This document shows positions 27,773 to 29,338 of a DNA stretch of 35,493 nucleotides, one piece after another. The notes beneath the pieces are model-generated. The model saw only the letters and a program-made list of their open reading frames with translations, had not been told where the DNA came from and did no database searches. Source of the DNA: Leptolyngbyaceae cyanobacterium T60_A2020_046. Its GTDB lineage: Bacteria; Cyanobacteriota; Cyanobacteriia; Phormidesmidales; Phormidesmidaceae. The position numbers were made by a program, and so were the translations under genes. Numbering within the stretch: position 1 is the stretch's first letter; each line of letters begins with the position of its first letter. The stretch lies in NCBI GenBank assembly GCA_015272155.1, contig JACYME010000036.1, positions 1 to 35,493 on the forward strand. Direction: 5' to 3'.

Positions 27773-28258
27773 ATGTCTGTAGTTAGTCAAGTGATTCTGA
27801 ACGCCGATGATGAGCTGCGTTACCCCACCATTGGCGAACTCTCCAGCATTAAAGACTTTTTAGCAACGGGCGAGCAGCGGCTACAGATCGCCCAAACCCT
27901 TTCTGAGAACGAAAAGAAAATTGTAGATAAGGCCAGCAAGGAGCTGTGGCGTCGTCGCCCAGACTTCATTGCCCCCGGCGGCAATGCCTTTGGGCAAAAG
28001 CAGCGGGCGCTGTGCCTGCGGGACTATGGCTGGTATCTGCGCCTCGTGACCTACGGCATCATCGCAGGAGACAAGGCTCCGATCGAGAGCATTGGCCTGG
28101 TGGGCGTGCGCGAAATGTACAACGCGCTGAATGTGCCGATGCCGGGGATGGCAGAAGCCATTCGCTGCTTAAAGGAGGCCTCCCTGGGTCTGCTGTCCAA
28201 TGAAGACGCCCTGGAAGCCGCGCCTTACTTCGACTTCATTATCCAAGCGATGTCCTAA
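27773..28258 (+). CDS. apcD: Allophycocyanin B alpha-type subunit ApcD
   Basis: ApcD is a terminal emitter in the phycobilisome core. It passes excitation energy to the photosystems, notably photosystem I, and affects state transitions. The 161-residue product matches the family end to end: [19 protein letters not shown] at the N-terminus, [20 protein letters not shown], the phycocyanobilin-binding Cys at position 81 in [17 protein letters not shown], and [12 protein letters not shown] at the C-terminus. The opening [13 protein letters not shown] distinguishes ApcD from ApcA. It stands alone rather than in the apcABC cluster, as is usual. No Shine-Dalgarno is visible before the ATG. A terminator follows at 28455. 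Confidence 0.97.
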
Positions 28259-28500: not shown

Positions 28501-29130
28501 ATGGATTTTCTCGACCGGACAGAGCGCGATCGCCGCATTGGCAAAGTGGTGAAGTCAAACTCCCACTGTGATTATGTAGTGCAGGTAGACGACAGCCACG
28601 ATGTGGTGTCGCCGCCGCCGTCGGAAGCCTTTGGGTTTGGACAGTTTGTGGCGCTGGAGGATGGCGATCGCCACTGGGCCGTCGGCCTCGTCTACAACTC
28701 CCAGTTGGTGAACCCGGCGTTTCTCAACAATGGGCCGCGCCTGTCGAGTGAGCCCGACCCCATGTTTACCCCCGACCTGATCAGTGAAACCCGCACCCTG
28801 CTGGGGGTGGTGCTGGTGGGCACGCGGCGGGTGGAGGGCCGCAGCCAGTGGGGCGACCACGGTATCCCTCGGGTGGTGGTGCCCGTCAACACAAATGTTT
28901 ACGCCATGCCCCCCGATGCAGTGCATCGTTTCCACTGCGATCGCGACGGGCGACCTCAGTTTCGCTACTACAGTCATCTGCTGCGATCGGGGGGGCGATT
29001 TGCCGCCCAGTTGACCCAGCAGGTGTTGACCGAATTGATTGACAGCAACCTGTTTGCTGGGGCAGATCAGCGGGCGCTCACGGTGTTGTGCAAAGAGCTG
29101 TCTTGGAAGAATACAATGGGCGCAATGTAG
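28501..29130 (+). CDS. Cyanobacterial conserved hypothetical, possible HAS-barrel-like protein
   Basis: This 209-residue soluble protein has no signal peptide. The opening IGKVVKSNSHCDYVVQVDD followed by GQFVALED is reminiscent of the small beta-barrel (HAS-barrel) domain found at the start of HerA-type ATPases, but no ATPase part follows. The C-terminal half (YYSHLLRSGGRFAAQLTQQV, VLCKELSWKNTMGAM) is uncharacterised to me. ATG at 28501 is preceded by GGAG and AGGTGG within 12 bases. It starts immediately after a terminator hairpin. Assignment beyond conserved hypothetical is tentative. Confidence 0.7.
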   Translation: MDFLDRTERDRRIGKVVKSNSHCDYVVQVDDSHDVVSPPPSEAFGFGQFVALEDGDRHWAVGLVYNSQLVNPAFLNNGPRLSSEPDPMFTPDLISETRTLLGVVLVGTRRVEGRSQWGDHGIPRVVVPVNTNVYAMPPDAVHRFHCDRDGRPQFRYYSHLLRSGGRFAAQLTQQVLTELIDSNLFAGADQRALTVLCKELSWKNTMGAM

Positions 29131-29191: not shown

Positions 29192-29285
29192 TAAAAAACC
29201 GACAGGACTCCCGTGTGCCTGTCGGTCGGTGTGTGTTCCCTGTAGATGACTCGGCTAGAGTTGAGTCATCTACAGTATGCGGATG
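29192..29285 (-). ncRNA. Candidate minus-strand small RNA with two hairpins and its own terminator
   Basis: Read on the minus strand, a perfect 13-base stem, CTGTAGATGACTC with GAGTCATCTACAG (29240-29252 and 29263-29275, ten-base loop), is followed by an unpaired linker GGAACACACACCG. Then comes a perfect nine-base stem ACCGACAGG/CCTGTCGGT (29198-29206 and 29218-29226) running straight into TTTTT. That is an intrinsic terminator pointing left. No minus-strand gene exists to its right for more than 4 kb, so it has nothing to terminate unless a short transcript starts nearby. On the plus strand neither hairpin has a T-run. A weak CATACT -10 precedes the first hairpin. The start position is my estimate. 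The linker does not match the Yfr1 or Yfr2 motifs as I remember them. Confidence 0.42.
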
Positions 29286-29322
29286 GGCTGAGGTTACCCC
29301 CACGATCTCCATCACGGTGCCG

Positions 29323-29338
29323 GGTGATATTGATCACA
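29323..29338. promoter_or_regulatory. CRP-like dyad upstream of purL
   Basis: GGTGATATTGATCACA matches the CRP-family consensus TGTGA-N6-TCACA at nine of ten defined positions. Cyanobacteria have cAMP-receptor proteins (SyCRP1 type) with a similar site. It lies about 180 bases before purL and about 40 bases beyond the proposed 5' end of the minus-strand small RNA, so it could serve either. Chance occurrence cannot be excluded. Confidence 0.35.

Follow-up and report, generated by a model that had tools for sequence, protein, structure and literature searches.

A new family of predicted small RNAs in cyanobacteria, probably controlled by cAMP-CRP, found beside purL in a Leptolyngbyaceae genome

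The sequence analysed here, hereafter the window, is a 35,493-nucleotide stretch (contig JACYME010000036.1, positions 1 to 35,493) of Leptolyngbyaceae cyanobacterium T60_A2020_046. A small RNA (sRNA) element lies on its minus strand, in the intergenic region between an unnamed ORF and purL (Table 1). The phycobilisome gene apcD, the unnamed ORF and purL are all encoded on the plus strand, in agreement with what an earlier note on this DNA had stated about the flanking genes. In many Leptolyngbya-like genomes, the 209-aa ORF likewise adjoins the sRNA and is convergent with it. Elsewhere in the window, a cobalamin riboswitch is present on the minus strand at 1487-1659 (36 bits, above the Rfam gathering score).

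Table 1. Positions of the predicted sRNA gene, its parts, its upstream sites and the neighbouring genes in the window
Feature	Position	Strand	Evidence or remark
apcD (phycobilisome gene)	27773-28258	plus	
Unnamed ORF, 209 aa	28501-29130	plus	no Pfam match
sRNA gene, predicted transcript of ~75-77 nt	29193..29269	minus	homologues; covariance model R1, 98.4 bits
Predicted intrinsic terminator, stem ACCGACAGG/CCUGUCGGU then U6	29193..29226	minus	terminator scan, fold, compensatory changes
Conserved unpaired stretch AUCUACAGGGAACACAC, presumed seed	29231..29247	minus	invariant or nearly so in both alignments
5' hairpin, GACUC / AACUCUAGCC loop / GAGUC	29248..29267	minus	5 bp in most copies
-10 box, CATACT	29274..29279	minus	-10-like hexamer at this distance in ~150 of 169 distinct copies
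Proximal degenerate CRP-like site GTGATGGAGATCGT, centre ~-40	29302..29315	minus	conserved TGA-N4-ATC
Distal CRP-like site TGTGATCAATATCACC, centre ~-62	29323..29338	minus	TGA-N6-TCA upstream in 163 of 169 copies
purL	from 29521	plus	divergent from the sRNA

A perfect 13-bp hairpin occupies 29275-29240 of the minus strand, as the earlier note had described; its arms are 29263-29275 and 29240-29252, and its loop is 29253-29262. Next come the linker, the terminator stem CCGACAGG/CCTGTCGG at 29225-29199 and a run of six U residues at 29198-29193. The terminator had previously been given as 9 bp running into five U; the stem comprises 8 bp, or 9 bp when one A-U pair is included, and the run is one residue longer. 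The 93-nt minus-strand sequence has a folding energy of -39.9 kcal/mol (z = -7.2), a value reached by none of 200 shuffled sequences. From the -10 box and the alignment of homologues, we infer a transcription start (+1) at 29267-29269, and predict that the transcript ends within the U run, at 29193.

Homologues of the sRNA were identified in 37 of 59 relatives by a nucleotide search with a 141-base query. The match in Leptolyngbya sp. PCC 6406 shows 99% identity over 87 bases, and the alignment covers approximately the RNA only; in other genera, the same 75-90 nt are found at 85-99% identity, the remainder of the intergenic region giving no alignment. Covariance models R1 and R2 detected the sRNA in 49 of 386 genomes, representing 34 of 139 genera of the phylum and including a large Nostocaceae-like family as well as Thermosynechococcus-like genomes (2.4-2.6 Mb), and over 100 named cyanobacterial records contain it (Leptolyngbya, Nodosilinea and Thermosynechococcus among them). 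Because Leptolyngbya relatives share the sRNA with genomes of the Nostocaceae-like and Thermosynechococcus-like kinds, a recent origin, one of two explanations offered earlier for the perfect stems, is excluded. When 30 genomes from the families that had given no match were searched for more remote homologues, among them genomes of Synechocystis-, Microcystis- and Microcoleus-like size, the scores were at chance level only.

The sRNA is present in one copy per genome as a rule, and some genomes contain two to four copies, often in tandem. At the multi-copy loci (L051, L082, L104, L120, L191 and others), tandem copies come with promoters of their own; neither the CRP site nor the CATACT box is present in a few of the downstream copies. 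At least one of apcD, the unnamed ORF and purL lies within 3 kb of the sRNA in 67 of 131 loci, and none of the three was detected within that distance at the other loci, some of which are cut by contig ends. The vicinity to purL pointed out in the earlier note is therefore a property of this genome and of only part of its relatives. The gene order apcD-RNA-purL is common to Leptolyngbya-like and Nostocaceae-like genomes, and for this reason looks ancestral.

In alignments of 24 and 42 copies, the sequence GACUCAACUCUAGCCGAGUCAUCWACAGGGAACACAC is nearly invariant. The terminator stem is variable, with compensatory changes in six of nine pairs and a covariation score reached by none of 500 shuffles. 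In the 5' stem (helix 1), 89.5% of cells are paired and no compensatory double changes are found, so that the covariation which the earlier note had proposed to look for in both stems is seen in the terminator alone. The commonest length of the 5' stem is 5 bp; a 13-bp stem occurs in only 2 of 163 copies, and its outer 8 bp are peculiar to the window genome and one relative. The perfect 13-bp stem of the earlier note is thus kept in its inner ~5 bp, which together with the terminator are conserved in close relatives, but not in its outer 8 bp. Because they are located downstream of the -10 box (29279-29274) and ahead of the expected start (29267-29269), the additional 5' bases are assigned to the promoter rather than to the RNA; the outer 5' arm is probably located upstream of the transcript start, running into the -10 box. 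Nostoc-like copies form a shifted 5' hairpin instead, in which the same 3' arm takes part in a different pairing. The Thermosynechococcus-like copies (L155, L156, L158, L159 and L160) have a different 5' loop (AGUACUAUCC). A peptide-coding reading was rejected and the sRNA is regarded as non-coding, since 94 of 96 copies contain no ORF longer than 8 aa and no ORF is conserved.

Upstream of the RNA, the -10-like hexamer is located at -25/-26 from the anchor in the ~150 distinct copies that contain it. The TGA-N6-TCA motif, present in 163 of the 169 distinct copies, is nearly always centred 75.5 or 76.5 bases upstream of the conserved GAGUC and, as an internal control, hardly ever occurs at other distances upstream of the sRNA. 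A weaker motif, TGA-N4-ATC, is conserved as well; it lies 22 bp downstream of the distal one. Thermosynechococcus-like copies have a single strong CRP-like site in the proximal place, i.e. 22 bp closer to the start. The centres at about -62 and -40 correspond to the class I and class II activation positions of Escherichia coli CRP. A palindrome of the TGTGA-N6-TCACA type is thus found at an activating distance from the -10 box, the arrangement by which members of a cAMP-CRP regulon are recognized in sequence. The site TGTGA-N6-TCACA is the one bound by Synechocystis SyCRP1 and Nostoc AnCrpA, whose promoters have a TAN3T box ~22 bp downstream (PMC2633013).

These features bear on whether the element is a gene at all. 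A stray bidirectional terminator or a mobile palindrome following the plus-strand ORF that ends at 29130 would fit the folding of the hairpins on the plus strand too and the distance of only 60 nt between the ORF end and the element. Its probability is nevertheless minimal, since the T run is present on the minus side only, there is usually one copy per genome, and a promoter, an invariant linker and deep conservation are unlike a mobile palindrome or a bare terminator; the homologues in relatives, the phylum-wide matches and the conservation of the upstream sites already contradict it. On comparative evidence, the pair of hairpins is a real, conserved non-coding RNA gene with a predicted terminator, -10 box and CRP-like sites. 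The small-RNA reading of the earlier note is accordingly supported, as a free-standing gene with its own promoter and terminator.

In the window genome, six helix-turn-helix matches of the CRP/FNR type scored above the cut-off. One of these proteins (L201) resembles E. coli CRP in having a cAMP-pocket RS motif, GEMAPLDEVPRST, together with RETVTR as its recognition helix; Crp-family regulators and E. coli CAP are among its nearest relatives of solved structure. The recognition helix of NtcA (L200) in the same genome is RVTVTR, and an RE-x3-R helix is found in just one CRP/FNR family member. A SyCRP1-like CRP is present in 110 of 386 genomes, namely in 48 of 49 genomes with the RNA versus 62 of 337 without it (Fisher p = 3e-29, uncorrected for relatedness and inflated by shared ancestry). 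The exceptional genome, G150 (C1:589245-589321, L190), contains the sRNA and a good CRP site and has no SyCRP1-type CRP match at a cut-off of 1e-45; recent loss of CRP, an assembly gap or the use of another regulator are possible explanations.

In a different reading, the upstream palindrome belongs to the divergent purL or to some other regulator of the CRP/FNR family, the RNA itself being constitutive. Binding sites are alike across this family, those in the window are situated between the RNA and the divergent purL, and G150 has sites without a CRP gene. We nonetheless consider this quite improbable: in Thermosynechococcus-like genomes and in tandem copies, the sites accompany the relocated RNA away from purL at similar spacing, and the family members of the window genome include a single RE-x3-R recognition helix. 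Since the sites accompany the RNA in each of its locations, they are attributed to the sRNA and not to purL.

Promoter, short non-coding transcript, intrinsic terminator and conserved unpaired region, all recognized in the sequence, are the features of a trans-acting sRNA, and the best reading of the locus is that it probably encodes a ~75-nt, cAMP-CRP-activated sRNA of this class. Its transcription, its activation by CRP and the use of the unpaired stretch as a seed are what we infer from these features. Upon a rise in cAMP, a CRP of the SyCRP1/AnCrpA type would bind the palindrome at about -62 and the weaker one at about -40 and activate the promoter; RNA polymerase would read the short gene and stop at the terminator, releasing an RNA with a short 5' hairpin and the unpaired 17-nt stretch AUCWACAGGGAACACAC, which may base-pair with mRNAs elsewhere in the genome and thereby alter their translation or stability. 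As its promoter carries sites of the CRP-binding type, the sRNA probably relays the cAMP signal to other mRNAs. The earlier note had suggested the CA-rich linker as a plausible seed; the CACC end of this linker varies, and the conserved unpaired stretch, which is the likely seed, is the 17-nt sequence, not the CA run alone.

Target prediction, also proposed in that note, was performed as a search for exact complements of 8-10 bases within 20-30 nt upstream of ATG in a few genomes, and no conserved target was seen in this weak test. In the window genome, exact 10- and 8-base complements ahead of ATG showed no excess over the reversed-pattern control; in up to 21 genomes, the 10-mer and 8-mer complements showed no consistent excess over the reversed pattern, a weak and narrow comparison; and among 80 complement sites fetched, no orthologous target gene recurred between genomes. 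As no targets were found, the base-pairing mode is deduced from the architecture of the RNA. Alternatively, the RNA is real and CRP-controlled, and what the 17-nt stretch binds is not mRNAs but a protein or a further small RNA (as a sponge). The near-absolute conservation of the unpaired block over deep divergence resembles that of a binding site, and the exact-complement searches revealed no conserved mRNA complement. However, seeds of base-pairing sRNAs such as Yfr1 are equally invariant (PMC4734099), and the searches were narrow, so that we hold this alternative to be unlikely. If the stretch were a site for a dedicated RNA-binding protein or another sRNA, the RNA would be a cAMP-controlled sponge, a kind not known in cyanobacteria.

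The element has no match in Rfam, either at the gathering threshold or at relaxed E-values up to 10. A full-text literature search with the sequence of both strands returned unrelated primer matches only, a search combining apcD, purL and an sRNA brought up no paper, and the main text of PMC2633013 names neither apcD nor purL. In the open-access literature searched, no report of the sequence or of an sRNA at this locus was found, although an unnamed entry in the supplements of a Nostoc sRNA survey, which predicted 627 sRNAs (PMC4734099), is possible. The RNA is classed as a new sRNA family, likely under the control of cAMP-CRP.

What is known of cAMP signalling in cyanobacteria comes from a small number of CRP-dependent protein genes, for motility and nitrogen fixation. 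If the reading as a CRP-activated, trans-acting sRNA is true, an RNA of this kind kept from Leptolyngbya to Nostocaceae and Thermosynechococcus adds a post-transcriptional arm to the cAMP signal, and its occurrence in culturable strains (e.g. Leptolyngbya sp. PCC 6406) makes it a ready RNA for target hunting.

Among enterobacterial small RNAs, CyaR is activated and Spot 42 is repressed by cAMP-CRP. The proposed sRNA would, like CyaR, be an output of cAMP-CRP; it differs from both in belonging to another phylum and having no sequence relation to them, in line with the lack of an Rfam match. It resembles Yfr1 in that both are small and widespread in cyanobacteria and have an invariant CA-rich unpaired stretch flanked by two hairpins, but the Yfr1 motif is CACUCCUCACACC (PMC4734099), as opposed to the 17-nt sequence here. 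Identity with Yfr1 was rejected, as CACUCCUCACACC is absent from all aligned copies; the exact motif, CACTCCTCACACC, is found at another locus of the window genome (G000 contig C213, 49170-49182, L177), presumably its yfr1 gene. NsrR1 of Nostoc sp. PCC 7120, a ~110-nt RNA encoded between alr1709 and all1710 and repressed by NtcA (PMC6166021), is likewise a cyanobacterial sRNA that is conserved and intergenic and has a promoter with a regulator of the CRP/FNR family. It was rejected on motif, place and range: NsrR1 is confined to heterocystous strains and two unicellular ones (PMC6166021), whereas the present element occurs in Leptolyngbya, Nodosilinea and Thermosynechococcus records. Finally, the upstream region is similar to SyCRP1 and AnCrpA promoters, in which the palindrome is followed ~22 bp downstream by the TAN3T box (PMC2633013), and differs from them in that two sites 22 bp apart would here drive a non-coding RNA.
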